A DNA stretch of 31,521 nucleotides from a virus. Where the stretch lies: IMG/VR virus record IMGVR_UViG_3300024520_000331, positions 1-31,521 of that record. One strand, 5' to 3'. Shown in pieces: positions 9,509-31,159 of the stretch (position 1 is the stretch's first letter; each line of letters starts with the position of its first letter). The notes beneath the pieces are model-generated. The model worked only from the letters and a program-made list of their open reading frames with translations. It was not told where the DNA came from and ran no database searches. The translations under genes and the position numbers were made by a program.

Positions 9509-9563
9509 CGTGACCAACTAGTAAAGGGGCCAATTGATAACACCACGACAGAGGCGCACAGGT

Positions 9564-12900: not shown

Positions 12901-13006
12901 ACTTCTTTACATCCTCAATGATCGTCTTGTAATTCTTAGACCAATCCTTGATCGGAAGTTCAACCCCAACCCGGAGAGACCCAAGATTTCCAATGGTCTT
13001 TCCCAT
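9944..13006 (-). CDS. tail tape measure protein (TP901 family)
   Basis: 1020 residues. Residues about 80-310 carry the TP901 tape-measure core: FQQSMVNTQAVAGATSEEL, a TxFSAxExAxAMxxLAxAG pattern, and then LGGLFNAGLDASTAGTSLRQ near residue 230. Around 385-450 lie hydrophobic Gly/Ala-rich segments that probably insert in the host membrane at ejection. Long helical regions follow, then a Pro/Arg-rich stretch near 880-960 and a compact C-terminus. With about 1.5 angstrom per residue, the usual ruler relation, the tail would be roughly 150 nm long. The start ATG overlaps the stop of the frameshifted chaperone product as TAATG, with AAAGGTG upstream. It is the largest tail gene and the anchor for the tail module annotation. 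Confidence 0.95.
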   Translation of the reverse strand: MGKTIGNLGSLRVGVELPIKDWSKNYKTIIEDVKKFPKTTDKALNRAGKAWEKHAGSIKAASIGMVAFGTAATVGFGMAVNEAATFQQSMVNTQAVAGATSEELQQLTGFAREMGKQTVFSAKESADAMVSLASAGQNTNEIMNSLKGTLNLAAATNSDLAFTSKTVASTLSQFGFAATESDRIANVFTATISASQATMDKLATSMSIVGPVAKSIGLSLEETAGILGGLFNAGLDASTAGTSLRQSIAQLLKPTDDAKEALKRLNVETVDSSGKLRSMTDIVRDLEGANLQAADALSIFGVRAGPGMLALVSQGADSIEDLTKEITGTDKAAEIAALQVETFSGQMKLLNSAVSELKITVGNELLPVLTDYTTRLAGIINDTSDWAAENKGVTSVLVKLGAAISGVALGAGAIGLASPGIIRAGKALKFLVTPLGALVAIDAILVGWATKRIWDAATRDIDLASIRTKTFTERQENLQLALEQIGGELNVFEQTGNRTDATLQDLGIDADRLNKILGGDKGLFVSTDNASRVYAGLSRNFGRTSEEVAKLAGGIEKLGPPQEDAATKTKRLAGEMAILEKEVNNLSTTLLTLPSAAGVGTTQLERNADKAVAILKQRTAFETDWITTNGIVQLGLVEKNVDERLTLLGDETKEQRKIREDAQKEERKARDEGLTGTLFVPETEAKKVIKSRQKTAADSMKIAKDGSVQILQISGAVAKKQIEDINAVTTAQIAAGERRGIELEKEFEKQTDLLASAETTWVDYGNAVVDIFASVTKKNNAFSDTWIGTLTDWAIGNRRILDTVSDLWSGKAKSITGSAVSIFGTMADLLTSIHNARRDMARLDRAEDTSRRERLMDRGFTFTEAEDIIQGRRTLGGEPVDQESREEAARARTVRRRGGGRPQLARSFIAAQIGGRVTRTPIATGVTGAEPIAPPQPFVPRRQEGIDRFGRPIAPTPAMAPAAPGRAGDVKVEISVVLPNVTDIRDLDSADMEIFTRDGVLPALESLGFRVVRSDNLMVS

Positions 13007-13794: not shown

Positions 13795-14175
13795 TTACGC
13801 GGCTAACCCGCGCTGTTTTAGTTCTTTGATTAGCAGCTTCATGATCTCTGGTTTCTTCGCTAGGAAGCCCGGCAACATGAAAGCAAATTTGCCGCCGGAG
13901 ATTACTTCGACAAATTGCCCATATTCCATCCCTGCGAATATCCAGGCGATTATCACGTCTCGTTCTACCGTCACTTTATGCGTTATGCTCCGTCTGAGAG
14001 CGCCAGTTCTGTCAGTAAAACCTACACCGCTTATGGGGCGCTGGTATTGAACCTTGATGAACGTCTCTATAATGATCGCTACCTGCTCAACGCTCTCGAT
14101 CAATCCCGCCACGAACAGGCGCTGAAACCCCTTGAGGTTCTTCAATACTTCATCAGCGCCCGTCACGTGTCCCAT
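13795..14175 (-). CDS. HK97 gp10-like head-tail / tail completion protein
   Basis: 126 residues. It starts with MGHVTGADEVLKNLKGF, followed by a long helix (FVAGLIESVEQVAIIIETFIK) and then VQYQRPISGVGFTDRTGALRRSI, EYGQFVEVISGGKFAFMLPG and a basic C-terminal helix. The sequence 'helix, then xRTGxLRxSI, then EYGxxVExGxxxxPF' is the hallmark of the HK97 gp10 family, which acts at the head-tail joint. The ATG lies three bases after the tube gene stop. In most siphoviruses gp10 genes precede the tail tube gene, whereas here it follows. Confidence 0.8.
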   Translation of the reverse strand: MGHVTGADEVLKNLKGFQRLFVAGLIESVEQVAIIIETFIKVQYQRPISGVGFTDRTGALRRSITHKVTVERDVIIAWIFAGMEYGQFVEVISGGKFAFMLPGFLAKKPEIMKLLIKELKQRGLAA

Positions 14176-15861: not shown

Positions 15862-17049
15862 CTAATCAGCCTCCATTGTCAGTAGTTGTTTTTTTGGCTT
15901 ATCCCAGGAATCAGGCTCAGTAAGCTGCACGATCTTCGCTTGTGCTGGCTGGCTATCTCCCAGCAATAAACACAGAGCGTTATCAGTATTGGCAGCATAT
16001 CCAGCTATATCAGGTTTGTGCTTTGCCAGCATTTCCGCCCTCATGAAAAATAACGATGCTTGTATTTTATTGCCCAGGAATGAAGTGCAGATGCCCATGT
16101 TCTGAAATACCTCCGCCCTGCTGCCCCATGTGTGATATACGACGGTATGATCAGTTCCTTCAAGCTGCAAGCTGGCTCTGACCTTGATGTATCTGGCGAA
16201 GCAGTCCAATGATAATTGCCACGCTTCATCTTGCATATAGGCAACCCCAAGATAGAACAGAGCATCCAATGATTCAGGATATTCTTTCAACAGCTTCACG
16301 CCTGCTGCCTTAGCCTTCACATTGTCACCCAGCGCGTTATACGCCACGATAGCACCTGCGGCGGCTTCCTGGTATATGCCAGGGTGGGCATTTAGCTTGT
16401 TGAGATGCTCACCCAATACCGCCAATACATCAACATGGCGTTCCAGTGAGCGATAAGTCTGGATCAAAAACCTGACATTCCGCATGATATATCCGGCGTC
16501 GTCTATGTCCATCAATAACATGCGGAGCGTATTTGCGTATTTCGTCTTGAGTTCCTCTGGCGAGGCATCATATCCATAATGCAGGAAACTAAATCGCGAT
16601 AACGCCGCTTTGCCTTCGTCGATAACAAGCTGATTATGTACCCGCCACTCATAATGACATTTGGCTGGCTGGTAAATCCTCTCAAACTGATGCACCGATA
16701 TTGTGCCACCTATGACATTATGGATAGGCGTCATGTATGCAGAATGTTGATCATCCAGCTTGTCCAGTTCAGGGATTGAGATCGCCGGAACTTCCTCATC
16801 AGCGTCGATCTGTAACGCCCATTTGGTCTTGACCTTCCCTTTAATCCAGTTCCGGGCTTCTGAAAAGCTGTCCTGCCACGGATGCTCATATACCTCTGCT
16901 GTATAGACGCGCGCAATCTCCATCGTGTCATCAGTCGATCCTGTATCAGCGATCACGATAGGCATAATATCAACGACGCTTTCCAAGCAACGCTCCAGAC
17001 ACGTCGCCTCGTTTTTGACTATCATTGCTGCTGTGATGTTATCATACAT
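15862..17049 (-). CDS. GT2 glycosyltransferase with TPR-like C-terminus
   Basis: 395 residues. Residues 1-~170 are a GT2 (GT-A fold) domain: the N-terminal MIVKNEATCLERCLESV, VIADTGSTDDTMEIA (32-46), FSEARNWIKG and the metal-binding DADEE at 82-86. Residues ~190-370 form helical pairs with TPR-like spacing (AGAIVAYNALGDNVKAKA, then ALFYLGVAYMQDEAWQLSLD), which probably recruit the acceptor protein. This combination of GT2 and TPR is known in bacterial and phage protein or surface glycosylation genes. The start is supported by AAAGGGGCC before the ATG. The gene overlaps the upstream transferase by 28 nt. It is cytosolic. The sugar and acceptor are unknown. Confidence 0.8.
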   Translation of the reverse strand: MYDNITAAMIVKNEATCLERCLESVVDIMPIVIADTGSTDDTMEIARVYTAEVYEHPWQDSFSEARNWIKGKVKTKWALQIDADEEVPAISIPELDKLDDQHSAYMTPIHNVIGGTISVHQFERIYQPAKCHYEWRVHNQLVIDEGKAALSRFSFLHYGYDASPEELKTKYANTLRMLLMDIDDAGYIMRNVRFLIQTYRSLERHVDVLAVLGEHLNKLNAHPGIYQEAAAGAIVAYNALGDNVKAKAAGVKLLKEYPESLDALFYLGVAYMQDEAWQLSLDCFARYIKVRASLQLEGTDHTVVYHTWGSRAEVFQNMGICTSFLGNKIQASLFFMRAEMLAKHKPDIAGYAANTDNALCLLLGDSQPAQAKIVQLTEPDSWDKPKKQLLTMEAD

Positions 17050-17969
17050 CTTGGCCCCTTTGTTGCGGCGTCTATCGCCGGTAGAATATACTCATTTACG
17101 AACTTGATGCAGTTATGGTTCTGTGAAACATGCTCATAAACCGCTTCCTGCTTCTCAATTACCTCATCCATATCCATCTGCTTAACTCTGTTGCACACGT
17201 CTACGAACTCCGCCCCTGTGTTGAATATAAACACCTGGTCATCGTCAAAATAGCGGTCCAGATGCTTTGTCGGCGGCGTTATCACCAGCGCCCCACATGC
17301 AGCAGCTTCCAGGACCTTCCCGCGCGTCTCTGGAGATAACTGGCTCCCCGTGGTGATGATTGCTCTGGCGTTTTGCAAGTATTCAATATAAGGCTGACCA
17401 TTTAGATCTCCCGCCATGTTGCACATATCCAAAAATAACTTCCCGCCATGCTGTCTATTTAACTCTCTAAGGGCAACGCGCAACGGGTACGCCTCATTGG
17501 ACGCACCCGCCATAACTATCGGCTCACCGCCGTACACAGGCGTACACTTGGTCATGTCTACACACCAGGGGATGAACGTCCCATCTACCGGGTAACATCC
17601 ATTCTTATCTGCCATCCGGTAGAGGATGCGATCCCACACTTGATAAAAAGGATCGCCCCATGAGTCATAACAGGAATCGCCCGCGCGGAGAATCGTTGGA
17701 ACATCAGCGCCCTGAATAAGATTGAGCCATTCCGTCGCGCCAAAATAGCTGAACCGGGATTCCGCAGCACACATGCTGATAATACAGTCTATCCAATTAG
17801 CATTCAGAAACGTATCCAATTGCTCAGGAAATGGTATGTCGTCAACAAACCACTCGAAAGGCGTATATAGCCCCGCGTCGATGCCACGCTGCACCCATCC
17901 ATAATTGAGGGAAAAGTTGTACCGCTCAGGAACGTCTATGCGGTTTTTGAGGAATAGGATTCGTTTCAT
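17022..17969 (-). CDS. CgeB/GT4-like glycosyltransferase
   Basis: 315 residues. The N-terminus is MKRILFLKNRIDVPERYNF. The middle carries PTILRAGDSCYDSWGD and a helix before the C-terminal Rossmann domain. Near residues 207-233 it reads TTGSQLSPETRGKVLEAAACG followed by ALVITPP. The 'RxxExxACGAxxIT' pattern is the nucleotide-sugar-binding helix of the CgeB/Glyco_trans_1_2 branch of GT-B transferases. A PGxSN-like donor loop is not obvious. The ATG overlaps the stop of the GT4-methyltransferase gene as ATGA. It is the middle member of a three-gene cassette and is cytosolic. Substrates are not predictable. Confidence 0.7.
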   Translation of the reverse strand: MKRILFLKNRIDVPERYNFSLNYGWVQRGIDAGLYTPFEWFVDDIPFPEQLDTFLNANWIDCIISMCAAESRFSYFGATEWLNLIQGADVPTILRAGDSCYDSWGDPFYQVWDRILYRMADKNGCYPVDGTFIPWCVDMTKCTPVYGGEPIVMAGASNEAYPLRVALRELNRQHGGKLFLDMCNMAGDLNGQPYIEYLQNARAIITTGSQLSPETRGKVLEAAACGALVITPPTKHLDRYFDDDQVFIFNTGAEFVDVCNRVKQMDMDEVIEKQEAVYEHVSQNHNCIKFVNEYILPAIDAATKGPRCMITSQQQ

Positions 17970-19894
17970 TCTGCGATCTCCCGTTCCATTTCGTATAAGA
18001 CACCCGAATACAATAGTGTTTCTTCAACAATATCATCGCCCTCTATCGCAGGGAAATCCTGTATTGTTGCCTCTGATTTACATATCCGCGCATATATCTC
18101 AAGGCTGTGATATTGGCTCTCATGATTGTTGTATACCTGATAACCATACGCCTCGTCAAAAAAATACTTCTCAACGAAGGCTCCAAATGGGACAACGTTT
18201 TTTTGCTTCATGAACGCTGGCGCATTGTCGGCTTCCATGAAGAACCATCCGCCCCGGAGCATTTCATATGTGGAATCAGGGAGAAAGAACCACTTGTGAT
18301 CGGGATCCCAGTGAGCAAACCCGACATTTGTAGTGATGATCAGGCATCCATCAGGCTTCAACACGCGCATGAGTTCTTTCAGATCTTCGGGATTCTCCAC
18401 GTGCTCAATCACCTGAGAGAGGATCACTGTATCGAATGATTCATCATCGAAGGGCAATGACCTGATTTCTGCTTGCTGGAATTGGAGATTCTGGGGGAGA
18501 TCTTCCAGACTAGCAAGCTGGTCGGCGATTTCAATATTGCTTGCGTTTTGATCGACCCCCACAACAGACCATTCCTCGCCTGTAATCTCATTCCAATTTA
18601 ACGTATCTATCAACTTCTCAGCCAACATGATCGCCAGCGCCCCATGTTTGCATCCAACATCCAGGATGCGCCCCTTGAGCATGGGATCTGCCATAATCTT
18701 ATTGAATCTGGCATATATCCGGGTATCTGCTTTGGGTAAAGCATCAGGGGAGTCCCCTTGAATCAGCGACGTGATATTGTCAAGTTCGGAGGATGTTCCA
18801 GTTTCCCACCTCTTTTCCCCCAGTTCCAGAATGAGCTCCCGGAGTGGGAGGGAATTTACTTTCCAGTCCCATTCATATCTAACTTCATCTGTGATAATGT
18901 GTCGCATTTCACTCAACAGATCACCATTGCGTGCCAGAACATCCATTCTCCTGGTAATCCCGCGAATATGTGGAATCATACCCGGAACAAATATATCAGA
19001 ATGCTGCTTCTGGCTGGCTATCTCACACCAGAATCCAGTATCGCCATTTTTCACAAACTCATTCATGGGGGGAGCGTCCACCGTAATGATAGGCAAGCCG
19101 CATCCAATAGCTTCCAGGAACGTCAGGCCCAACCCTTCCCACTTGGATGGGAGTATCGCCACATCAGATTCCTGATACATCTTGATCAACATATTTCTGG
19201 GAACTGTGCCGTTTATCAGGCTCACCCCGTTCTGCTGGTGCATACTGACCGCCTCGTGCTGCGTATGGATCAATAGCTCTGCATCGTTCTCCATCAGCTT
19301 AAACGCCGCAAGCACAAATTCAGTCCCGCGTCTGCCGTGCATTCCGCCCCATCCCGCCGGATGGAAGAATCGCACAGGATCATTCGGCTCTCTTATTGCA
19401 GGCTTGAATACGTCTAGGTCAACGCCCCATTTTATGTGATGAATATTCTTGACCCCCAACTCCCCGAACCGCTGGAAACATGCTGTTGTCGGGCATACAA
19501 TGGCGTCATATACCGCATTGCACGGGCCTGTATATGGTGGATTGAATAGCTCCCAATAATAGATCCCCATCGTGGCCACGCCCATTTGTTTGACCATTGC
19601 CACCAGGTTGAAATCGTATTCCTCATTGAAAAACACCAAGTCAATATCGTTATCCTCGATCCATCTCTTCAGTACAGATTGAGGTATCTGGTATTGATCA
19701 TGCCGCGTGAGATTCGGTATATCCCACTCACCACCTGAACCTATGGGGTTGACGGTATCGCTCCGGGCAAACACAAACACCTCGCAATCATCCTCTATAG
19801 CCTGGATCACGTTCTTCGTGACGTAAGCCTGACCACGCTCAAACCAGTATGAAACAAATCCTATTCTCATCACATCAAATTCTTTGCGTGTCAT
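17966..19894 (-). CDS. fused GT4 glycosyltransferase - SAM methyltransferase
   Basis: 642 residues from the ATG at 19894, which overlaps the preceding stop as ATGA. ATG 19924 (ten residues longer) or 19870 remain possible. Residues 1-~360 are a GT4/GT-B transferase: MRIGFVSYWFERGQAYVTKN, PAGWGGMHGRRGTEFVLAAF, then PSKWEGLGLTFLEAIG near 249-264, the donor-binding signature E(x7)E. Residues ~390-560 are a class I methyltransferase: ILDVGCKHGA (motif I, 410-419), VVGVDQN, then PFDDESFDTVILSQVIEHV (481-499) and VLKPDGCLIITTN. Thus one protein may both add and methylate a sugar. A C-terminal stretch of about 70 residues has no clear domain. There is no membrane segment. Confidence 0.85.
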   Translation of the reverse strand: MTRKEFDVMRIGFVSYWFERGQAYVTKNVIQAIEDDCEVFVFARSDTVNPIGSGGEWDIPNLTRHDQYQIPQSVLKRWIEDNDIDLVFFNEEYDFNLVAMVKQMGVATMGIYYWELFNPPYTGPCNAVYDAIVCPTTACFQRFGELGVKNIHHIKWGVDLDVFKPAIREPNDPVRFFHPAGWGGMHGRRGTEFVLAAFKLMENDAELLIHTQHEAVSMHQQNGVSLINGTVPRNMLIKMYQESDVAILPSKWEGLGLTFLEAIGCGLPIITVDAPPMNEFVKNGDTGFWCEIASQKQHSDIFVPGMIPHIRGITRRMDVLARNGDLLSEMRHIITDEVRYEWDWKVNSLPLRELILELGEKRWETGTSSELDNITSLIQGDSPDALPKADTRIYARFNKIMADPMLKGRILDVGCKHGALAIMLAEKLIDTLNWNEITGEEWSVVGVDQNASNIEIADQLASLEDLPQNLQFQQAEIRSLPFDDESFDTVILSQVIEHVENPEDLKELMRVLKPDGCLIITTNVGFAHWDPDHKWFFLPDSTYEMLRGGWFFMEADNAPAFMKQKNVVPFGAFVEKYFFDEAYGYQVYNNHESQYHSLEIYARICKSEATIQDFPAIEGDDIVEETLLYSGVLYEMEREIAE

Positions 19895-20142
19895 TCCGAT
19901 TTTTCCTGCGCCGTGTTCTGCCATCCCTCTATTTCTACTTTGAGCGTCTCTACTTCCGCCTCAAGCCCTTCTGTGTGCTCCTTCGATTGCTGTAACGCGG
20001 CCGCCTGCTGCCGTACTAGTTGCTGCAATTCCACCACTTCATTTCGCGTAGCAAGTAGCTCCCTGCGTTCAGCCGCAAGCGTCAGCAGTGCTTGGTTGTG
20101 GGATAGTTCGTTGATCTGCGCTACATTTCGTTGTTCAGTCAT
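19891..20142 (-). CDS. small coiled-coil protein, 83 aa
   Basis: 83 residues from the ATG at 20142, chosen because GAGGGGCC lies six bases upstream. An earlier ATG (20166) would overlap the previous gene and lacks a site. The sequence is one long Glu/Gln/Leu-rich heptad region (VVELQQLVRQQAAALQQSKE, then EAEVETLKVEIEG), a predicted coiled coil over most of its length. Its stop overlaps the GT4-methyltransferase start as ATGA. The function is unknown. It could be a trimerisation or scaffold element of the neighbouring virion proteins, or a partner of the transferase. Confidence 0.6.
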   Translation of the reverse strand: MTEQRNVAQINELSHNQALLTLAAERRELLATRNEVVELQQLVRQQAAALQQSKEHTEGLEAEVETLKVEIEGWQNTAQEKSE

Positions 20143-20152
20143 TTTGGCCCCT

Positions 20153-20437
20153 CTATGGTGGTTCATTGATGTCTATGTCGTGCTCTCTCCGTGTTACCGT
20201 CGTATCATGATCCCTACCCGTTGCCGTTGTATTCTGTGTCCTGCGTGTTGCTGTTAGATCGTGCGTCCTACTTGTTGCCGTTAGATCGTGATCTCTGCGC
20301 GATGCTGTTGTTGTGTGGAGAAGTATCGGACTAGGCGTTACCGAAGTAACCGAAAACATCCATACTACCGAAGGCTTTATCATATAGCCAACGGCGTTTT
20401 GCATCGAATTCAGGCGCGTTCTCCAGTGTATTATCAT
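20153..20437 (-). CDS. small protein with five 9-residue repeats
   Basis: 94 residues. The start overlaps the stop of the 1780-residue gene as ATGA, so it is probably translated by coupling. The N-terminal half (MIIHWRTRLNSMQNAVGYM ... VTPSPILL) has a weakly hydrophobic stretch. The C-terminal half is five tandem 9-residue units of the type RDHDLTATR (RDHDLTATS, RTHDLTATR, RTQNTTATG, RDHDTTVTR, REHDIDINE), matching the 27-bp DNA repeat exactly in phase. It is rich in Arg, Asp, His and Thr. No family is recognised. The sequence composition is unlike its neighbours, so it could also be a decayed or non-expressed frame. Confidence 0.45.
   Translation of the reverse strand: MIIHWRTRLNSMQNAVGYMIKPSVVWMFSVTSVTPSPILLHTTTASRRDHDLTATSRTHDLTATRRTQNTTATGRDHDTTVTRREHDIDINEPP
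20176..20310. repeat. five tandem 27-bp repeats
   Basis: Five adjacent units of exactly 27 bases (20176-20202, 20203-20229, 20230-20256, 20257-20283, 20284-20310). Units are similar but not identical; on the plus strand they share a core like GTGATC followed by a GTTGCCGTT-type ending. Being a multiple of three, repeat number can change without shifting the frame of the gene. Confidence 0.85.
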
Positions 20438-23400
20438 GACGTGGTCTTAATTGTGATAAACGTATCCATTGCACCAGTAGCGGAGAATCTAAATGTCAAT
20501 AAATCCGCATTCATATCGGCGGCTGTGGCGTCTATCGCGTATATACCATTCGAGATCTCTGATATTGTTCCAGCTACCGACGCGAAAGCGCCGCCGTCCT
20601 TAGAGACCCGGCCGATAATAGTAAGCCCTACCTCCGGTGTTGCAAAGTCAGCTTCATCGACCATTAAGAATGTTAAATCGTTCAGTGCTGTGTTTTTCTG
20701 CGGCGCTTCTGGTAATAGAGCAGTGGCAGTATTGATAGTGTCAACATTTGCATCAATTATATCCTGCTTCGCCTCTGTCGCCAATAGAGCGTGAGCCGTA
20801 TCCATTTCGGTCTTTGTTGGCCCGTCATAGTCGGATAGAGCAGTATCTACTTCCGCATTCACTTGAGCCGCCGAAAGGTCATTCAGCGCAGCGATCAAGG
20901 CGTCAGTGGTGGTATGTAGCCCCGCCGCTGTGCCTGCCGCGTCTGGCGTTGTCGTGTTGAACCCTGTAGCTGTTATCCATTCAGCGTCGCCCCTGGTCCT
21001 GATAGCGGACAGTCCAAACGTTCCATCATCTAATCTATCCGTCACCAGTAAAGTATGGAGGTCTTTGCCAGCGACATCAGGTACGCCCAAAACATCAAGC
21101 AACGATTGATCGTTGGTACGCCCTGAAAAGTCGCCAATGTCTGTCTGAATAGCATCTACCTTGCCGTCTGTCGTACTGTGCAGCCCTGCGGCAGTTCCCG
21201 CAACGTCTGGGACAACTACATTAAATCCTGTGGCAGTTAGCCAGTTCGCCTCGCCTGTAGTATAAATGCCCTCCAGACTATGAATGGCGGCGTCAAAATT
21301 AGCCCCGCCGTTATCATCAGCCAATTTAGCTATAGCTGCGCCGATAGTCTGCGCCCCCCCATCTAATGCCGGTATAGTTCCTATCTTGGCGAGTTCCGTA
21401 GAGTTACTATCCATCTCCTGTCGGTTTTCGACGGCGGTTGGAGCAACGCCGGCAGCGTCGGGGACAGTCGTGTTAGCACCGTCAGTCCCGCGCATATCTG
21501 TATTTGTAGTAGTAGTGTCCACCAATACGACACCCTGTACTTTGTCAGTGGCAGGATCATAGCCGTCGTCGGCAAAATCTTTTAAGTCTGTTGCACTCTG
21601 GACAACGCCACTCATCTGTAACAGGTTGGATTCTACAACGCCAGCTGCCAAATTGATATTAGCTGCAAGCAACGCGCTATCAGTTCCTCGCATAGCCGCC
21701 CCGTCTATATTAACGACATCAGCCGCAACAGTATCAAGAATCGCGTCCAGCCTACCCGCATCGGTCCAGTCGCCTTGCAATTCATTCGTATCAGCCAATA
21801 TATCACTCACATCGTCTATCGTTAGATCCGTTGCTATAATGTCAACAATATCAGTTATCGCCATTGTAAATATGCCAGGATCTTCCTTGAGCGTAATCGT
21901 TTTGGTCGCTCCCGTGTAATCCAGAATACGCCCTACTGCCTTTTGAGTGGCCGTTACCGCATCAGTCACCACCATTATACATTCATTATAGGCGTTATCG
22001 TCGGCACTTCCAGCCGTTAGAGTGAAGCTGGTCTGACTTGCCAGCGTTGCAATGGTGGTATTCTGCAAAAGGTTGGGAGGGTCTCCACCCGCCCCTGTAG
22101 TCCACGCGGCGTCGCCTCGCGTTCTAAGAGCTTCAAGAGCTTCGTTAGCCGGTGTGAACCCGCTCCAGTCACCATCGCTGGCCGCTATCTTAGCCATAAT
22201 GGAATCATCCACAACATCGTCGGCATCAGCCACCGCTACCAGATGATCGAGTTTCTGAGCTACCAAAGCATCATTACATTCGCTCTCAACTTGTGCATCC
22301 CAGGCGGCATTCCAGGGAACAGCCGAAAGCCCCGCTCCTGCCGCCCCGATCTCCCCTGTATCGGTAACAATAGCCGACAACTGCGTCGAGTTGCTGTCCA
22401 TCTCCTGCCTGTTCTCTACAGCAGTAGGAGCAACACCGGCGGCATCTGGCACTACTGTATTCGCTCCGTCAGTGCCGCGCATGGCGTCGCCGTTCAAGCC
22501 TGTCACATCAATGTGAATAGCCCTAATTACTTCCGCAAGTGACACGCCATTGCCCGGCGCGGATTCAGCAGGAAATGTTACTACACCGTCAGTTCCAACC
22601 AATATATTGATCAACTGTTTCGCATATTGCATCACGGTATCTGACGCTGTTGGGTCGCCATCGGCCGCCGCATCTGCTAATGCACCTAACACGGATGCTA
22701 ACGCTGCGTTATCAGTACCTCTCATTGCTGTTGTCGGAATTGCGGCGAGAAGCGTCTGTAACGCTGAAAGACCAAAGGTTCCGTCGTCCAATCTATCAGT
22801 CACCAGCAGAGTGTGAAGATCTTTCCCTGCAACGTCTGGGACACCTAGCACGTCCAGCAATGTTTGATCATTTGTTCTGCCTGAAAAATCTCCCAGGTCT
22901 GTCTGGATGGCGTCCACTTTCCCGTCAGTGGTAGAATGCAAACTTGCCGCTGTTCCGGAAACGTCTGGGACTGTCGTATTTGCCCCGTCAGTACCTCTCA
23001 TTGCAGCGCCGTCAAGATTAACCACATCGGCGGCGATTAGATCCAGTATTGCATCCAGTCGGCCCGCGTCCGTCCAATCACCCTGCAATTCGTTGGTATC
23101 TGTTAGAATATCGCTAACATCGTCTATCGTTAAATCGGTCGCTATAACGTCAACTATATCAGTGACCGCCATTGTGAATATAGCGGGATCCTCTTTGAGC
23201 GTTATAGTCTTACTCGCTCCTGTATAATTCACAATCCGTCCTACTGCTTTCTGGGTAGACGTCGAAGCATCTGTCACTACAATAATGCACTCGTTATAGG
23301 CGTTATCATCTGCACTTCCAGCCGTTAAAGTGAAACTGGTCTGAGTTGCCAATGTTGCGATGGTTGTGTTTTGTAACAGACTCGGCGTAGAGCCGCCCGC

Positions 23401-25776
23401 GCCAGTGGTCCATGCCGCGTCGCCTCGCGCCCGTAGTGCCTCCAGTGCTTCATTCGCCGGGGTAAATCCGCTCCAGTCGCCGTCACTTGCCGCTATCTTA
23501 GCCATAATGGAGTTATCTACAGGGTCATCACTGTCGGCAACCGCTACAAGATGATCAAGTTTTATGTCAGAAAGCCCAGTATCCACTTCGGTGTTTACGC
23601 TCGCCTTCATAGTGGCAGTCAGATCCCCGTTGAGATTCGCTGTTACAAATCCGCTTGCATCGGTGACGATCTTCTGCGCCGGCGTTACCAGAATGTCCGC
23701 GGCTATTTCATCTACAGCGTCAGCGGAGAGTGCGTCAGCATCTATGGAGTCTGTCGCCATCACTGCTGCTGTGATAACACCCGCCGTCATTGTCTTTGTA
23801 TTTACGTCGAGATTGCCAGATAGATCTTGAGCATCTGTCGAAATAAGTATCTTGTTATCCGCCCCTAGCGCGTTCTCCACCATCAGTTCCAGCAGTGGCG
23901 GAGCTGCGTTATCGTCTGATATTTCATCAATATTTACGTCGGGCTTATTCCCTGTACTCAATGTTACCGCCTGTGACAACCACTCCATAGTATTAACATG
24001 GAAGCCCGTCGGGTCGGCTTGGCTCTGTGTCTCCCACTCGTCAACTATTTCCGTCGCTGTTGGCGGCTCTGACACCATATCGGTGTTGGTTGTGGTCGTA
24101 TCTACTAATACCACGCCCTGTACTTTATTCGTACCAGGATCATATCCTGCGTCAGCAAAGTCTTTAAGGTCAGTAGCACTCTGAACCACGCCGCCCATTT
24201 GTAATAAATTAGATTCCACAACGCCGCCCGATAAGTTAATATTGGCGGCAAGTAACGCACTATCGGTTCCTACCATATCTGTGTTGGTTGTAGTAGTATC
24301 TACGAGAACAACACCTTGCACCTTGTTTGTCCCAGGATCATAACCGGCATCGACGAAATCCTTGAGATCGGTAACGGATTGATCATCATTCTGAATTGTA
24401 CCCAAACTCGAATCGGCCGCCTGTATTTCATATGTGGTATCGGCTCCAGGATTGGTAATCCAATCGGGAGCAATATCGGCTACTTTAGTGCCGCCATCGT
24501 AATCAGTAATGATGCGTGATTGACCAGCACCAGTCCCACCCGTAGTTAAAATACGGCAACCATTAAACAAATCATTTGTCGCCGATGCTCCTGCCGTAAG
24601 AGTTATCGTGCCTGCTGCCCCTGCCTGTGCCGTCCCGGTAGCCAAAGAGGTCAACCCTGTGCCACCGCCAGTAGTCCATGCGGCATCACCACGATCCCTA
24701 ATCTCTTGCAATGAATCTGTACCGGCATCAAAGTCTGCCCCGCCGTTATCGTCAGCTAACTTGGCAATGGCCGCACCAATAGTCTGCGCTCCACCATCCA
24801 GAGCGGGGATAGTTCCTATCTTAGCCAATTCAGTAGAGTTAGAATCCATTTCCGCCCTGTTTTCAACGGCAGTGGGCGGCTCTGTCACCATATCCGTGTT
24901 GGTGGTTGTAGTGTCAACAGTTTTTACGCCCTCAACCTTATTGGTCGCAGGGTCGTAACCGGCATCGGCAAAGTCTTTAAGATCGGTTGCACTTTGCACT
25001 ACCCCACCCATTTGCAATAGATTGGATTCTACAACACCAGCCGCTACATTAACATTCGCCGCCAATAAAGCCCCATCTGTGCCAGCCATATCGGTGTTGG
25101 TTGTGGTAGTATCTACCAATACAACACCCTGTACTTTATTCGTACCAGGATCATATCCTGCATCAGCAAAGTCCTTCAGGTCAGTAGCGGACTGAACTGT
25201 GCCGCCAAGTGCTTTGGTGTTTACATCTAATGACCCAGACAGATCCTGAGCGTCGGTAGAAATAAGTATCTGATTATCTGCGCCTAGTGCATTTTCAACC
25301 AACAATTCCAGAAGTGGCGGCGCTGCACTATCATCGGAAATCTCATCTATATTTACATCGGGCTTATTGCCCGTACTTAAAGTCACTGCCTGGGACAGCC
25401 ACTGAACAACATTAACCTCGTTAAACCGGTTCTCTATAGAAAACGTGCCTACACCAGCGTTAATTGTCGCCCCATCAACAGTCGTGCCCTCAATACGCAC
25501 CATATAATCCGACCCAGTTACCCAGAACGCCGCCACTGTGTCATCGCTGGTATCTATCTCTATCAGATGAGTTCCTGTTATACCATCAAAGTCCACAGAC
25601 ACCGTAATTCCAGCAGCGTTATTCCTCTGCGCCACCGCACCGTCTTTATGTATATGGACGTCAGTGTCGGCGAAGTTGGTAATGGTAGAGGACGCGCTGG
25701 GATCGTTAGACGTATAGGTGTTGAAATACATATATACAGTCTCGTCTTCTAAAAAGTCCCCCTGATATTGTATCAT
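20434..25776 (-). CDS. giant mosaic repeat virion protein (fibre / surface candidate)
   Basis: 1780 residues, the largest protein here. Residues 1-~130 are a beta sandwich (MIQYQGDFLEDETVYMYFNT ... DYMVRIEGT), and the last ~85 residues (VGLTIIGRVSKDGGAFASV ... LLTFRFSATG) are another of similar type. The middle is built from repeated blocks. Five copies of TDLKDFADAGYDPGTNK continue into VQGVVLVDTTTTNTDM. Two copies of WLSQAVTLSTGNKPDVNIDE occur. There are two copies of a ~190-residue block from LDHLVAVADADD to AAMRGTD, and two copies of a VDAIQTDxGDFSGRTNDQ block. It is very acidic, poor in Lys and Arg, with only a few Cys and no signal or membrane segment. GGAGGG lies before the ATG. Such acidic phage repeat proteins are usually long fibres or capsid-attached appendages. 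The exact role is unknown. Confidence 0.7.
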   Translation of the reverse strand: MIQYQGDFLEDETVYMYFNTYTSNDPSASSTITNFADTDVHIHKDGAVAQRNNAAGITVSVDFDGITGTHLIEIDTSDDTVAAFWVTGSDYMVRIEGTTVDGATINAGVGTFSIENRFNEVNVVQWLSQAVTLSTGNKPDVNIDEISDDSAAPPLLELLVENALGADNQILISTDAQDLSGSLDVNTKALGGTVQSATDLKDFADAGYDPGTNKVQGVVLVDTTTTNTDMAGTDGALLAANVNVAAGVVESNLLQMGGVVQSATDLKDFADAGYDPATNKVEGVKTVDTTTTNTDMVTEPPTAVENRAEMDSNSTELAKIGTIPALDGGAQTIGAAIAKLADDNGGADFDAGTDSLQEIRDRGDAAWTTGGGTGLTSLATGTAQAGAAGTITLTAGASATNDLFNGCRILTTGGTGAGQSRIITDYDGGTKVADIAPDWITNPGADTTYEIQAADSSLGTIQNDDQSVTDLKDFVDAGYDPGTNKVQGVVLVDTTTTNTDMVGTDSALLAANINLSGGVVESNLLQMGGVVQSATDLKDFADAGYDPGTNKVQGVVLVDTTTTNTDMVSEPPTATEIVDEWETQSQADPTGFHVNTMEWLSQAVTLSTGNKPDVNIDEISDDNAAPPLLELMVENALGADNKILISTDAQDLSGNLDVNTKTMTAGVITAAVMATDSIDADALSADAVDEIAADILVTPAQKIVTDASGFVTANLNGDLTATMKASVNTEVDTGLSDIKLDHLVAVADSDDPVDNSIMAKIAASDGDWSGFTPANEALEALRARGDAAWTTGAGGSTPSLLQNTTIATLATQTSFTLTAGSADDNAYNECIIVVTDASTSTQKAVGRIVNYTGASKTITLKEDPAIFTMAVTDIVDVIATDLTIDDVSDILTDTNELQGDWTDAGRLDAILDLIAADVVNLDGAAMRGTDGANTTVPDVSGTAASLHSTTDGKVDAIQTDLGDFSGRTNDQTLLDVLGVPDVAGKDLHTLLVTDRLDDGTFGLSALQTLLAAIPTTAMRGTDNAALASVLGALADAAADGDPTASDTVMQYAKQLINILVGTDGVVTFPAESAPGNGVSLAEVIRAIHIDVTGLNGDAMRGTDGANTVVPDAAGVAPTAVENRQEMDSNSTQLSAIVTDTGEIGAAGAGLSAVPWNAAWDAQVESECNDALVAQKLDHLVAVADADDVVDDSIMAKIAASDGDWSGFTPANEALEALRTRGDAAWTTGAGGDPPNLLQNTTIATLASQTSFTLTAGSADDNAYNECIMVVTDAVTATQKAVGRILDYTGATKTITLKEDPGIFTMAITDIVDIIATDLTIDDVSDILADTNELQGDWTDAGRLDAILDTVAADVVNIDGAAMRGTDSALLAANINLAAGVVESNLLQMSGVVQSATDLKDFADDGYDPATDKVQGVVLVDTTTTNTDMRGTDGANTTVPDAAGVAPTAVENRQEMDSNSTELAKIGTIPALDGGAQTIGAAIAKLADDNGGANFDAAIHSLEGIYTTGEANWLTATGFNVVVPDVAGTAAGLHSTTDGKVDAIQTDIGDFSGRTNDQSLLDVLGVPDVAGKDLHTLLVTDRLDDGTFGLSAIRTRGDAEWITATGFNTTTPDAAGTAAGLHTTTDALIAALNDLSAAQVNAEVDTALSDYDGPTKTEMDTAHALLATEAKQDIIDANVDTINTATALLPEAPQKNTALNDLTFLMVDEADFATPEVGLTIIGRVSKDGGAFASVAGTISEISNGIYAIDATAADMNADLLTFRFSATGAMDTFITIKTTS
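21680..23559 (-). repeat. two-copy ~570-bp block inside the giant gene
   Basis: The segments at about 22987-23559 and 21680-22251 encode near-identical ~190-residue blocks (LDHLVAVADSDD ... NTTIATLATQTSFTLTAG ... GDWTDAGRLDAIL ... AAMRGTD). DNA differs mostly at third codon positions while protein is kept. This indicates an old duplication held by selection on the protein rather than a recent copy. Confidence 0.75.
24080..25193 (-). repeat. TDLKDF repeat copies 1-4 (a fifth lies at about 21495-21600)
   Basis: Copies of a ~35-residue unit lie at about 25090-25193, 24890-25003, 24280-24380 and 24080-24180, with a fifth further along at about 21495-21600. Each has the core TDLKDFxDxGYDPxT followed by VDTTTTNTDM. 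In between lie single-copy inserts, so the gene grew by block shuffling rather than simple tandem expansion. Confidence 0.75.
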
Positions 25777-26300
25777 CCTATAGGCCCTCCAAATGGCCCT
25801 ACCAATGGCCCGTAAAACACACCAGTCGGAGCATTACCCCCAGGCGTCGGCGTATATGTTACCCTTACTTCTACTTTAGCAATAAACATGGTATTACCCT
25901 TGCCAACATTGTCTTTCTGTACTCTTACATCGAAATTCTGAACGTCCGTCCAATCCCAGGGATTAGGAGCTTCGGCGTCGTCATATAAATCACCTAGATA
26001 AGAAGTCCAACCTGGCGAACCCGGTATTGTGGAATCGTAAGAATTAGCCGAAAACGTCGAGCCACCATATAGAGCGCGCCAAGTAATTTCATCATTACCA
26101 TCGCCATCACCATAAGCGCGAACCTGCACATTGGTTATAGTTCCCAAATCAGTACCCGGTGCTGTGCTTCCATTCAGTACCTGCCTATCCCCGCTCGACG
26201 CCGTGGACGCATAATTCGTGAGGATATTGTCTACCATATTACCTGGATTAGTCCAGTCCGAAGTGCTATAGCTGTTGTAGTAATATGTTATAAATGCCAT
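25773..26300 (-). CDS. beta-rich structural protein of unknown role
   Basis: 175 residues from the ATG at 26300, which overlaps the previous TGA as ATGA. An in-frame start 11 residues earlier would lie inside the upstream gene. It is Tyr/Asn/Ser/Thr-rich with strands throughout (MAFITYYYNSYSTSDWTNPG ... GTITNVQVRAYGDGDG ... FIAKVEVRVTYTPTPGG). The C-terminus is a Gly/Pro-rich tail ending in FYGPLVGPFGGPIG. The fold resembles a jelly-roll or carbohydrate-binding-like sandwich. The gene is coupled by ATGA to the giant repeat gene, so a joint role in a surface appendage is plausible. No family is recognised. Confidence 0.6.
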   Translation of the reverse strand: MAFITYYYNSYSTSDWTNPGNMVDNILTNYASTASSGDRQVLNGSTAPGTDLGTITNVQVRAYGDGDGNDEITWRALYGGSTFSANSYDSTIPGSPGWTSYLGDLYDDAEAPNPWDWTDVQNFDVRVQKDNVGKGNTMFIAKVEVRVTYTPTPGGNAPTGVFYGPLVGPFGGPIG

Positions 26301-26641
26301 CAGAGACCCACTTCCGACAGATAGAATCCACAACCATCAGGCGGTTTGTAGCCTTTGTCCACCATATCAGTCTCAAGTGGATAGGGGGGGCAATTCCTTT
26401 CATACCAATCAATCTGCGCCTGGGTGACGAGCCGTCCCTCTGCGTCCACCACTGCTTCTATTGCGCCAGCTCTGCCCATGATCAAACAGTTACCAAACTT
26501 TGCGCCATTGGGTTTGCCATAGAACTTGCACTGCTTCTGGCCTCTATCAATACAAGGATTCAGAAACATTACGGGCGGCTTACAGCACTTCCCGCAATAA
26601 ACACATGATCCTTCGCGCTTTTTGACACCTATCTCGCCCAT
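26300..26641 (-). CDS. nine-cysteine YkgJ-like metal- or Fe-S-binding protein
   Basis: 113 residues with nine Cys at 13, 16, 19, 20, 30, 38, 52, 84 and 104. The opening CVYCGKCCKPP (CxxCGxCC) and the later CPPYP and DGCGFY resemble the YkgJ/UPF0153 zinc- or iron-chelating family. It is soluble, without a membrane segment. The function of the family is not known in detail; metal or Fe-S binding is inferred from the Cys pattern. It lies between a connector-like gene and a beta-rich structural gene, an odd place for a metalloprotein. The ATG lies three bases after the connector gene stop. Confidence 0.65.
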   Translation of the reverse strand: MGEIGVKKREGSCVYCGKCCKPPVMFLNPCIDRGQKQCKFYGKPNGAKFGNCLIMGRAGAIEAVVDAEGRLVTQAQIDWYERNCPPYPLETDMVDKGYKPPDGCGFYLSEVGL

Positions 26642-26643
26642 GT

Positions 26644-27468
26644 TTATACAAGCCGTCCCTTCTGCGGCCCTGATGTTGCGCGGAATCTCTTTGCCATATC
26701 AAGAAAACTATCATAAGTATAACTGACACTACCCCGGCTCCATGATGTTGCTCTCGCTGTATCAGACGCCAGTTGTTCGTAAGCCTCAGCAATAGCCCCG
26801 TTGACGTTATAACTGTAGGCGTCCAGGTAGTATGGCTGTAGTGTCTGCTCTGAATCAAATCGAAACGTCCCGGATGTCAGGTTGAAGCTCGTGGGAGTCT
26901 TGAAGGTTGCATCCCTTCCTGATCTATCCCAGATATTGATCTTCTCTTCTGGATCCCCTGTTCCCGACCAGGTAACAACACTGCCCTCAAGCATGGTGTG
27001 GCGCGCCTCAAACACTTGCGAGTCAGGATCTACGTCCAGCTTTTTTCGATTGATCCGCTCTCGATGGAGATCAAGAAATACCTGAAGCTCATCATCAGTC
27101 CATGTGAATCGCTCAGTCAGATACACCCGGAATCTATCAGGCCATTGGGTTGCTTCACCATCTACTGAGCCGCCAAACACTACCTCCCAATAGCCCTCAA
27201 TGGCTGTCGGAGCGAATAGATAGAAATATACACCTGTTGCGGATTGCGTCGGAGTAGCATCGTCCACAACTACCGTACCATTCGGATCGGTAATGGTCAC
27301 TGTAGGTGATGTGGGATCCGTCGCTACATCATCCAGATCGTTGTATGTATTACCCAGCTTGATAGTGTCGCCAAAGTAATATTCATCATCCGCCAACGGC
27401 AGAGGCGTAGCATCGTTCAGCTTCAACCGAAGATGCTTGATAATGTGGTTCATTGTTATGCGCGCCAT
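26644..27468 (-). CDS. head-tail connector-like protein with Ig-like N-terminus
   Basis: 274 residues with GAGGTG before the ATG. Residues about 50-120 form an Ig-like beta sandwich (PTVTITDPNGTVVVDD ... GYWEVVFGG). Residues 125-274 include a helix (WTDDELQVFLDLHRERINRKK), a strand region and a final helical part (AIAEAYEQLASDTARATSW ... YDSFLDMAKRFRATSGPQK). The C-terminal helices resemble HK97 gp6-type head-tail connectors, where a short helical bundle ends with 'LxxxAxxLRxxxG'. Lying after the capsid genes fits a portal-associated connector, but the Ig domain is an uncommon addition. The evidence is pattern-based. Confidence 0.5.
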   Translation of the reverse strand: MARITMNHIIKHLRLKLNDATPLPLADDEYYFGDTIKLGNTYNDLDDVATDPTSPTVTITDPNGTVVVDDATPTQSATGVYFYLFAPTAIEGYWEVVFGGSVDGEATQWPDRFRVYLTERFTWTDDELQVFLDLHRERINRKKLDVDPDSQVFEARHTMLEGSVVTWSGTGDPEEKINIWDRSGRDATFKTPTSFNLTSGTFRFDSEQTLQPYYLDAYSYNVNGAIAEAYEQLASDTARATSWSRGSVSYTYDSFLDMAKRFRATSGPQKGRLV

Positions 27469-27971: not shown

Positions 27972-29675
27972 CTACGCTATCGTTATGGTATGCTCCGCGC
28001 CTGTTCCGCCTGCCTGCGCCAGATAGCGCCAGACAGTACCGTCACAGAAGAAGTACAGCAATGCTCCGATCTGCTCGCTTGCGGTTGTATAGGCTACTGA
28101 CGAAGCGGTTGCATCGTTATATGCTACAATGTTGTTACCTTCAGGAGACGTGACTTTCAACTCATTGTCAGTGTCCTGTGTAAACCAATAGTGTAGTCCC
28201 GCTGCAAGCGCGGGGAGAGTGTATTCTATGTCGTCACCATCGCCAGCGTTGGTGAAGATCGTTCCTGTATCAGCCGCCGTTACCACATAATCTGCGGTTT
28301 TGTTAGTGATCAGCGCCATTGTGGTCACGCTGAGAGCCAACGAATACGCACCAACAAAACTCATTTCAGATGCGCCCGCGTCAAACAGTACATAATCTGC
28401 ACCATTGGCGGCATTACCATATACCTTGATGTCAAACGATTTCTGTGTTGCGTCAGAGATACCGAACTCAATTACAGAGTCATCCGCGGCGGCGGCAATT
28501 TTCACGCCCCCGCCAGCAGTCCAGTATATCTCAACGTCCGAACTGTCGCCCAGGAGCAACTTGTCGTCATCGTTCATGCGGAGATCGACCTGCTCAAATA
28601 TTACCTGATCGGCGCTGGCGTCAAACAGCACGATATTGCTTGCCGTCTCGCCAAACCACTTTACGTCAATCGATTCCGTGCCGTTACCAATGGAGAAAAC
28701 GTCATCATCAGCAGCGGCAGTCAGCGTCAGGTCAGTGGTGTATTGAAGCACCATATCCTGACTATCGCCAAAACTAATATTGTCGTTGTCGCCCAGATAC
28801 AGGTCCACATCGTCCAGGGTAATCGTATCGCCAGATGCGTCTATGGTGATAGTCTTCGCTGATGTTGACAGATTCCAGACCATATCGAAGCTGTTTCCTG
28901 TAGCTCCCCATGTGATCACAGAATTATCAGCCGCCGCCAGGATGTTCAATCCACCGCCAGCAGCCCAGGCGATAGTCACGTCTTTGGAGTCACCAAAGGA
29001 CAGAACATCATCATCTTCCAACTGTAGGTCAACGCCATCCAGGTTCAGGATGTTGCCAGAAGCGTCAAATATGATGTTGTCATTGGCAGTGTTTCCATAG
29101 ATCCACACATCGAAGCTGTTTGTTCCGTTACCGAACTTGATCACTTGATCATCAGCAAGAGCCAGGATGTCCAGGTCGGTTCCATCCCACCTGACTTGAA
29201 CATCGTCACTATCACCGAATGCCAGTATGTCCGAATCATTCAACCTGAGATCCACGCCCTCGAAGTATACCTGGTCCGCCGATGCGTCAAAGTATACATA
29301 ATTGGATGCGGTTTCAAAGAAAAACTGTTGATCCAGGCTGTTTGTGCCGTTGCCCCATTCCCACACTACATCATCAGCAACCGGGGTCAGCGACTGCATT
29401 TTCGTTCCGTCAAACACAAGATTGATGTCTGAATCAGAACCGAAGAAAAATGCCACACCATCAGCGCGCGTAGAACTTGATGTAGCAGGGATGACCAATG
29501 AGGTCCCATCAACATAGATCTCTACGTTATCCCCATTGGTGTCCTTGAATTGCAATCTGTTGCCAAAAGTGATGATCAGGGTGTTATCCAGACCGTCATT
29601 CATGGCATCGAAGATGTCCCGGGCTATCCCGGCGTCTATAGTCGGCTCTATCGCCGACAAGTCTACAGCAGCCAT
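27972..29675 (-). CDS. five-repeat beta virion protein beside the capsid gene
   Basis: 567 residues with GAGAGG before the ATG. After an N-terminal helix region (about 1-60) come five repeats of about 74 residues. Each has a core such as FGDSDDVQVRWDGTDLDIL, followed by ADDxVIxxGxxxxSFDV and FDASxDxxxLDxVDL. The C-terminal ~130 residues form a separate domain (KTADYVVTAADTGTIFTN, then TLPALAAGLHYWFTQD and FFCDGTVWRYLAQAGG) like those closing other phage surface proteins. It is very acidic, with a regular beta pattern. Together with its place two genes after the capsid protein, this suggests a head decoration or head fibre. No named family is assigned. Confidence 0.65.
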   Translation of the reverse strand: MAAVDLSAIEPTIDAGIARDIFDAMNDGLDNTLIITFGNRLQFKDTNGDNVEIYVDGTSLVIPATSSSTRADGVAFFFGSDSDINLVFDGTKMQSLTPVADDVVWEWGNGTNSLDQQFFFETASNYVYFDASADQVYFEGVDLRLNDSDILAFGDSDDVQVRWDGTDLDILALADDQVIKFGNGTNSFDVWIYGNTANDNIIFDASGNILNLDGVDLQLEDDDVLSFGDSKDVTIAWAAGGGLNILAAADNSVITWGATGNSFDMVWNLSTSAKTITIDASGDTITLDDVDLYLGDNDNISFGDSQDMVLQYTTDLTLTAAADDDVFSIGNGTESIDVKWFGETASNIVLFDASADQVIFEQVDLRMNDDDKLLLGDSSDVEIYWTAGGGVKIAAAADDSVIEFGISDATQKSFDIKVYGNAANGADYVLFDAGASEMSFVGAYSLALSVTTMALITNKTADYVVTAADTGTIFTNAGDGDDIEYTLPALAAGLHYWFTQDTDNELKVTSPEGNNIVAYNDATASSVAYTTASEQIGALLYFFCDGTVWRYLAQAGGTGAEHTITIA

Positions 29676-29988: not shown

Positions 29989-31125
29989 TTACTCGCTAAA
30001 ATCACCATCATAGATCAGCCTCTTGAGCAGAACGGCGGCAGCCACATCTTCTACCTTCGCGTCAAAACGAATAGTATAGACGATATAGGTCTGCCTGTTG
30101 ATAGCGTCCCGCTGAAGCTCAACTTTGATGTTCCGCTGTATACCTACTGCCAGGTTCTTCGGCGGCGTATATATCCCAAAGGAATATGTCCCGTTGGTGG
30201 CGTCAAAGTTATCCTTCGTGATGTTGCCCGATGTGGCCTCCATCGTCAGCGGTATAGACGGCACGGACACTATAGGGACTCTGCCGTAGGTCATTGCTTG
30301 ATTGCCCAGAATGGCCTGATCGCCCAGCGTGGTCGCCCGTGCGCTCAGAGCAGCAACATAGACGGCCTCGACTTTAGGAGCTATATAGAACCGCAACTCT
30401 TGGAGCGTGAACTTCTTGAGATACCTGGTTGGCAGATCGCGCAACATGGCATTGAACTTGAACTCCCATCGACCGCTAGTGTCGTCCTGCTCGGCTATGT
30501 TTCCGTCAAGCTGAAAGTCTGACGTGTGATCACCATAGTTACCGCCATTGATAAGGTTGGACGCGTCCAACATCACCGTTGAACCTGTGACGGTGTTGTT
30601 ATATGTCTCGCTTCCAGTTGACTGGCTGTTGTCCAACTGTCTGAACCAGCCGTCCATCTGCTTCCTCGCGTCCTTTGCTCCGAAACCGCTGGCGGTCGAA
30701 GTGTCTCCAATCAAGGCGACCTCTTCAAGCTCATTGGAAATCTTCTTTGCTGCTAACTCCATGACATGATCGAAATACCCAGGGCCTTCAGGCAAGTCCT
30801 CAAGGTCAGTATCCTTGATGGGTATAACTCCCACCAATTCCTTAGCCGCCAGACCGATCAGATTTTCATCGAGTTCTGTTAGGTACTCACCAGGCCCAAG
30901 CGTACCTGCGTATAATATCCTGTCGCTAATACCAAGATGACGGAGGTTCTTCTCGTTCTTCTTCATCCTGATAAAGTTGGCGTTCTTCCACAATACCGAC
31001 TCATCTTCCAGTACGTCCAAAAACGCGTCAGCTTCTTCCGCTTCAAGCACAATATTCGGCAAAGAGACGGCTTTCATGACCTGATCTTTCCCGATATTCC
31101 GCAGAAGGTTTTGATTTGATAGCAT
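29989..31125 (-). CDS. major capsid protein (HK97 fold)
   Basis: 378 residues from the ATG at 31125, which has AGAGGTG about eight bases upstream; a GTG at 31134 falls inside that site and is rejected. The N-terminus is a helical arm (LSNQNLLRNIGKDQVMKAV). Then come strand and loop segments: LWKNANFIRMKKNEKNLRHL and ENLIGLAAKELVGVIPIKDT. Next is the spine helix, DHVMELAAKKISNELEEVAL, ending in IGDTSTASGFGAKDA and a MDGWFRQL turn. The order 'I..DTDL-F-V--A-KI--ELE---L-GD---DGW' is the usual HK97-type core. The C-terminus has RVPIVSVPSIPL and IQRNIKVELQRDA, typical of the A-domain. No sign of a fused protease. Confidence 0.8.
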   Translation of the reverse strand: MLSNQNLLRNIGKDQVMKAVSLPNIVLEAEEADAFLDVLEDESVLWKNANFIRMKKNEKNLRHLGISDRILYAGTLGPGEYLTELDENLIGLAAKELVGVIPIKDTDLEDLPEGPGYFDHVMELAAKKISNELEEVALIGDTSTASGFGAKDARKQMDGWFRQLDNSQSTGSETYNNTVTGSTVMLDASNLINGGNYGDHTSDFQLDGNIAEQDDTSGRWEFKFNAMLRDLPTRYLKKFTLQELRFYIAPKVEAVYVAALSARATTLGDQAILGNQAMTYGRVPIVSVPSIPLTMEATSGNITKDNFDATNGTYSFGIYTPPKNLAVGIQRNIKVELQRDAINRQTYIVYTIRFDAKVEDVAAAVLLKRLIYDGDFSE

Positions 31126-31159
31126 GGTATTCACCTCTGTTTATTCTGTTTATATCAAA

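Follow-up and report, generated by a model that had tools for sequence, protein, structure and literature searches.

The lactococcal baseplate upper protein BppU (PF10651) is a multi-domain linker that bears receptor-binding proteins and possesses a beta-rich N-terminal domain. The tail-fibre set of the podophage GP4 (PDB 8JOU) consists of an adhesin, a dimeric fibril and the collar adaptor gp77 (PMC13243795). In the Alishewanella phage LSH1, three genes that reportedly always occur together, gp34 to gp36, encode a beta-helix protein that ends in a disordered chain at its C-terminus, a fibril-like protein that weakly matches GP4 and a protein with an immunoglobulin (Ig) fold, a module that the authors of that study could not place (PMC13243795). 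Passages of PMC4728585 and PMC11414711 describe the branched fibres of the T5-like phage DT57C (LtfA/LtfB) and the tailspike complexes of Ackermannviridae, in which several receptor-binding proteins are assembled in one branched complex. Here we analyse a 1780-residue protein, P0001 (hereafter the arm), encoded by the IMG/VR virus record IMGVR_UViG_3300024520_000331. The window is the whole stretch analysed, positions 1 to 31,521 of this linear record (31.5 kb), which may be a fragment. We propose that P0001 is probably a modular virion linker arm with matched docking at both ends, lengthened to 1780 aa by block duplication. The arm gene, its two flanking genes, both of which overlap it by 4 nt, and the end regions that are central to the proposal are as follows.

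25773..26333, minus strand: upstream partner (-1 protein), 186 aa as listed, probably starting at the ATG at 26300, with a stop that overlaps the arm ATG by 4 nt.
25776..25835, minus strand: putative T2-type docking tail, made up of the C-terminal 20 residues of the -1 protein (..GVFYGPLVGPFGGPIG).
20434..25776, minus strand: the 1780-aa arm protein P0001, the subject of this analysis, an open reading frame (ORF) from ATG.
25423..25776, minus strand: N-terminal Ig-V-like domain of the arm, 'N2' type (aa 1-118), AlphaFold2 (AF2) predicted local distance difference test (pLDDT) ~90.
20719..20814, minus strand: long helix before the C-terminal Ig domain (aa 1655-1686), from AF2.
20437..20709, minus strand: C-terminal Ig-like domain of the arm (aa 1690-1780), AF2 pLDDT 96-98.
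20153..20437, minus strand: downstream partner (+1 protein), 94 aa; its start overlaps the arm stop by 4 nt.
20156..20299, minus strand: 9-residue microrepeats in the +1 protein (RRDHDLTATSRTHDLTATRR..), period 9, p 0.005.

The proposed organization resembles that of GP4, where a fibril protein connects an adhesin with the Ig-like adaptor of the virion (PMC13243795), and homologues of PF23148/8jou_D are found just downstream of some arms. It differs in that the arm has no trustworthy sequence match to any PDB chain: sequence and profile searches gave no convincing direct relative, and 8JOU (chain g, the fibril) was not among the matches listed by the PDB sequence/profile and fold searches, although homology is still possible. 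The LSH1 module, likened here by description, has the same three-gene outline as the arm cassette, whereas a docking code was not reported there. BppU is alike as a multi-domain linker with a beta-rich N-terminal domain that bears receptor-binding proteins, whereas the window gave no PF10651 match at E<=0.01 and, of 30 records, a single one did match, the contig of locus L045. The branched complexes of DT57C and Ackermannviridae, as portrayed in the passages cited above, are alike in assembling several receptor-binding proteins; the difference is that the C-terminal peptide of an adhesin would here dock on the N-terminal domain of a separate arm.

A first scan for relatives of the arm gave four loci, and alignments of the linker units and the C-terminal region then gave about 240 loci on viral contigs. 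A listing of the neighbours revealed that the type of a short recurrent C-terminal tail on the -1 protein follows the type of the arm N-domain. Tails of the form (I/V)PVxxHHYxQ pair with LRQSTA-type N-domains, GPLxGPxGGPI tails with GDF-type N-domains and NPWYYYAQQ tails with DVDAAL-type starts; these tail patterns were written after the first locus set had been viewed, gene starts were assigned by a simple ORF caller and some of the 'other' tail classes are wrong neighbours. The N2 domain and the T2 tail GVFYGPLVGPFGGPIG of the window match the family pairing, and L259 and L260, whose N-domains are nearest to that of the window, have the tails GPIVGPFGGPI and GPLMGPFGGPIQ. In Mantel tests on 110 dereplicated loci with 2000 permutations, the arm N-domain correlates with the upstream tail at r=0.60 (0/2000 permutations), a value that is unchanged after upstream-body similarity is removed. 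The controls are near zero, with r=0.013 for the upstream body, 0.004 for the tail of the -2 gene and a similarly small value for upstream residues -60 to -25. The correlation is also sharply bounded in a sliding test: on the upstream side it is 0.46-0.51 for residues -20 to 0 and only 0.03 for residues -30 to -20, while on the arm side it is 0.42-0.56 for residues 1-120 and only 0.05 past residue 160.

The pairing extends to loci collected by alignment of the N-domain. This search gave 80 loci, about nine contigs of which were already present in the first set, and 62 of the loci have an upstream ORF adjacent to the arm; scored by a fixed pattern, 40 of these 62 carry a T2 tail and none a T1 tail. 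In a strict held-out set (n=29), whose N-domains are unlike any of the first set, the mean tail rank is 0.19, which is under all 2000 permutations (minimum 0.233). Individual loci illustrate the same relationship. The upstream proteins of the window and L170 have bodies that are 40% identical over 161 aa and tails that differ, and their arm N-domains are unalignable. Conversely, the upstream bodies of L170 and L167 are unrelated, while their last 20 residues are 60% identical and their arm N-domains 74% identical over 115 aa. A single tail type is found on Laminin_G, DUF2341 and CBM96/Disaggr_repeat bodies, which argues that bodies have been exchanged behind constant tails. A further matched subtype was noticed in L301, L304, L318 and L337, where MNYVGDFAADET-like N-domains occur with VGxGLxxxxKLxRxRL tails.

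The other end of the arm covaries with the gene on that side. The C-terminal 100 residues of the arm correlate with the N-terminal 45-60 residues of the +1 protein at r=0.33 (0/2000 permutations), and the N and C ends of the arm are nearly independent of each other (r=0.047). The +1 proteins are mostly small, and half of the 68 that could be tested contain significant repeats, mostly of 8-10 residues. A small Ig-like protein often comes after the +1 protein in the relatives. PF23148, the GP4 fiber-tail adaptor, matches five of 111 downstream neighbours and is present in the L126 and L016 contigs; the +2 protein of L126 matches both this family and PDB 8jou_D (E 7e-8). Homologues of the L126 adaptor occur in phages of Mycobacterium, Gordonia, Burkholderia and others, and are annotated as virion-associated in BcepIL02 and BcepMigl; for the BcepMigl gp57 / BcepIL02 gp56 arm homologues, none was found in the PDB. 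In the window, the following candidate anchor is homologous to the small Ig proteins downstream of the arms in L114, L120 and L164.

27118..27468, minus strand: Ig-like N-terminal domain of the gene at 26644-27468 (gene 26644), a candidate anchor, phmmer 6e-10 to 1e-5.

As judged from sequence, this homology is a hint that the appendage may be anchored near the head-tail joint.

Since both ends of the arm are matched to peptides of the flanking genes, the arm is best understood as the linker of a multi-gene appendage. We infer that the covariation reflects physical contact, that the upstream protein is a distal adhesin, that gene order follows physical order and that the arm is part of the virion. 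The upstream lectin-like adhesin would dock via its C-terminal peptide on the arm N-domain, possibly as an added beta strand; the C end of the arm would bind the small microrepeat protein, and this in turn would contact an Ig-like adaptor fixed to the neck or tail of the particle. The order adhesin, arm, microrepeat protein and Ig adaptor would then run from distal to proximal in most relatives. The middle of the arm would be a reassortable linker, grown here to 1780 aa through block duplication. If the adhesin body were swapped and the tail stayed constant, the binding target would change and the arm would be left untouched; changes in the linker would alter the reach. A plug-and-socket code, in which the 20-residue tails of interchangeable adhesins fit the N-domain type and the C end of the arm fits the microrepeat connector, so that bodies are exchanged and tail type predicts arm type, seems to us reasonably likely. 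The sources consulted on GP4-type sets, the original GP4 paper not among them, make no mention of a tail/N-domain pairing, and the putative matched-ends code between the arm and its neighbour proteins appears, from sequence comparison, to be newly found.

Several observations weigh against this proposal. The chief alternative is that tail and N-domain make up a single recombination cassette through adjacency of their DNA, so that no contact between the proteins is needed, and that breakpoints fall preferentially in the Gly/Ala-rich linker and in repeats. All three genes overlap or abut (by 4-nt overlaps in the window), and adjacent tail and N-domain DNA can be co-inherited and so mimic co-evolution. 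With the patterns used, no second tail copy elsewhere in any locus, as cis-linkage would have it, and no natural tail-arm fusion were found. The tail is kept where the tail gene is not adjacent to the arm, which speaks against cis-linkage, but in two loci only (L287 and L298). The cassette itself is difficult to reconcile with linkage, in that it spans the gene boundary, ending 20 residues inside the upstream protein and running ~360 nt downstream, whereas proteins that do not interact would be harmed least by a breakpoint at the stop/start junction. We therefore regard cis-linkage without contact as unlikely. A second point concerns the T2 tails, in loci such as L259-L332, whose final Gly-Gly codons, GGAGG, resemble a Shine-Dalgarno site for the arm gene. 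This GGAGG probably doubles as such a site by dual coding, and the final Gly-Gly may thus be conserved for another reason; the other residues of the T2 tails have varied codons. The proximal side of the window also departs from the expected order. Unlike the GP4 set, the window has no match to gp77 (PF23148) within its linear and possibly fragmentary sequence. The Ig-like domain of gene 26644 lies upstream of the arm and not downstream, and was rejected as Gp77, since a comparison of shallow alignments gave no match to the Gp77 profile. The idea that it is fused to a proven head-tail connector was likewise set aside, as the C-terminal half of gene 26644 yields no assignment beyond a weak resemblance, over a short stretch, to an L170 gene (E 0.012). 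No close relatives of gene 26644 were found in IMG/VR.

The likeness of the two ends of the arm is one of fold only. The sequence-only reading had placed similar beta sandwiches at both ends, and AlphaFold predicts the same Ig-like fold for both. The two sequence profiles show no relationship (hhalign probability 0.4%), so the domains represent separate domain families, i.e., two anchor families, and the possibility that one arose by duplication of the other was ruled out. The C-terminal Ig domain belongs to the same hidden Markov model (HMM) family as the N-terminal domain of more than 100 relatives, most of them, while the N2-type domain, the second anchor type, is N-terminal in ~30 first-round relatives by HMM positions. 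The N-terminal domain model matches the shark variable new antigen receptor domain (VNAR) with a VIA Z of 8.7 (2.8 A over 94 residues). This is a common fold and tells nothing of function, and the Foldseek/VIA matches of both end domains are generic Ig neighbours only. Ig domains are common on phage surfaces. T4 Hoc is described as an example in a passage of PMC10385173. The arm might accordingly be a stand-alone decoration or head fibre that its Ig domain attaches directly to the capsid or neck and that displays a linker of its own, with the flanking virion proteins independent of it, and in the window and L006 it does lie near capsid genes. Covariation with the neighbours at both ends, and relatives that are far from capsid genes (e.g., L003 and the Microcystis phage described below), make this quite improbable. 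The suggestion from the sequence alone that the arm is a very long appendage is thus retained in part: the family context, with Laminin_G/DUF2341/CBM96-like proteins upstream and, on the downstream side of some arms, homologues of the GP4 fiber-tail adaptor, backs an appendage role, whereas a stand-alone filament is improbable since the ends are matched to neighbours.

Self-comparison placed 74% of the arm residues inside at least one internal repeat, with ungapped segment scores of up to 899 compared with 47-49 in composition shuffles. From the N terminus, the N-domain is followed by block A, two TDLKDF units (1 and 2), a stretch that closes with an RGDAAW segment, two further TDLKDF units (3 and 4), a second block A, block C, block D, a second block C, TDLKDF unit 5, a second block D and the C-terminal domain.

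25186..25416, minus strand: block A copy 1 (aa 121-197, WLSQAVTLSTGN).
23767..23997, minus strand: block A copy 2 (aa 594-670).
25087..25206, minus strand: TDLKDF unit 1 (aa 191-230).
24889..25008, minus strand: TDLKDF unit 2 (aa 257-296).
24274..24393, minus strand: TDLKDF unit 3 (aa 462-501).
24076..24195, minus strand: TDLKDF unit 4 (aa 528-567).
21493..21612, minus strand: TDLKDF unit 5 (aa 1389-1428).
22981..23616, minus strand: block C copy 1, 212 aa (aa 721-932), with an RGDAAW motif followed by a strand-rich-looking segment.
21673..22308, minus strand: block C copy 2, 212 aa (aa 1157-1368).
22753..22986, minus strand: block D copy 1 (aa 931-1008, VDAIQTD).
20995..21228, minus strand: block D copy 2 (aa 1517-1594).

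Much of what had been read from the letters alone is confirmed by this map: a non-tandem build from shuffled blocks, five TDLKDF units (motif at aa 198, 264, 469, 535 and 1396), a paired WLSQAV unit (aa 126 and 599) and two VDAIQTD blocks (aa 954 and 1540). Two long blocks are also present, each measuring 212 aa and not the ~190 first given, and these two copies of block C are 83% identical. Old duplications maintained by selection had been proposed as well. In the best blocks, the proportion of synonymous differences (pS) is 0.76-0.87 and that of nonsynonymous differences (pN) ~0.11; such saturated synonymous sites, seen in most copies, together with low pN indicate that the duplications are old and under purifying selection. 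Over all repeat pairs the same-codon share is 40% against 34% expected, so that synonymous choice is near random. Codon diversification to avoid recombination between repeats was considered and rejected, as synonymous identity overall is not under expectation. The pair aa 171-230 and 508-567, with 89% DNA identity and 73% same codons, is an exception to the saturated copies; it is recent, and reshuffling of the arm blocks therefore continues.

The window arm has a known N-domain type, reassorted linker modules and a distinct C end, the features by which the family is defined, and thus belongs to a large unnamed and uncurated arm family, within which its length is unusual. P0001 has no Pfam match at E<=0.1, and its best PHROG profile match (E 0.0097 over 19 residues) is insignificant; the relatives have only weak or low-complexity-type matches to curated, unrelated families. 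An ORF matching the arm is present in 225 of the ~240 loci, of which 185 are complete with a median of 557 aa, and the longest relatives have 2302 to about 3200 aa. The shared architecture is an N-domain, a reshuffled linker and a C-terminal domain. A scan of genomes gave 13 loci, every one in metagenome-assembled genomes of scattered phyla. The sequenced phage record of Microcystis phage Mvi-Yong1342-1 (PP496355.1, L243) has a minimal 207-aa arm (11992-12615) that comes after a lytic transglycosylase gene, preceded by an 849-aa putative adhesin with the tail PIPVFMNHYLQQGIR and followed by a MAIDTAAKRAS protein of 70 aa, the minimal form of the cassette. In L003 the arm lies between tail-type genes and a lysin-like gene, and the upstream neighbours of the relatives include Laminin_G, DUF2341 and CBM96-like proteins. 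An intracellular or secreted repeat protein that is merely expressed with late genes would suit the signal-peptide-like starts of the L002 and L109 relatives, yet in many phages unrelated to one another the genes nearby encode virion, lectin-like and adaptor proteins, and we consider such a non-virion role extremely improbable. In L002 (4421-11151), several genes between the capsid and later virion genes start in this signal-peptide-like manner, the arm relative (8171-9637) included, which is unusual for virion proteins. Near the arm cassette of L004, a reverse transcriptase gene (5496-6560) lies beside a protein (3632-5224) with a variable-looking GGRVSF-type C-terminus, of which a short repeat is found at 5281-5499; the region 3632-6560 looks like a diversity-generating retroelement.

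The sequence-only reading was correct that a 1780-residue ORF occupies 20434-25776, which lies on the minus strand. It had put this ORF between head and neck genes; the arm is situated between head and tail genes, with a capsid gene before it and tail genes after it.

29989-31134, minus strand: capsid-type gene, PHROG 1623 virion structural protein.
13795-14175, minus strand: Neck1/tail-completion gene.
9944-13006, minus strand: tape-measure gene.

On the head side, the minus-strand order is the capsid-type gene, a 567-aa repeat protein, gene 26644, two small genes and the arm; after the arm come the small repeat gene, three glycosyltransferase-type genes, the Neck1/tail-completion gene and the tape-measure gene. 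The 567-aa protein (27972-29675) is composed of repeated units (FGNGTNSFDV.. / DILAFGDSDDVQVRWDG..), and its relatives are found upstream of the arms in L215, L216, L222 and L223. Another gene (2757-4985) contains RCC1-like propeller repeats, seen here in a phage gene, and has one relative, in L232. Glycosyltransferase-type and methyltransferase genes are found amid the structural genes (4978-6600 and 15862-19924), and could be candidate modifiers of the Thr-rich arm. Glycosyltransferases beside the arm were discarded as a clue to its role, as they occur in the window but are no frequent neighbour class among the relatives.

The analysis provides an uncurated family on more than 200 uncultivated-phage contigs with a testable architecture, and makes sense of an otherwise puzzling giant gene, which becomes a long representative of a linker family that spans 207 aa to about 3200 aa. 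The short C-terminal tail can flag a candidate adhesin beside the arm where similarity of the adhesin body fails. If the proposed binding is true, the pairing of tails and N-domains would be a simple natural rule for the exchange of adhesins among phages.

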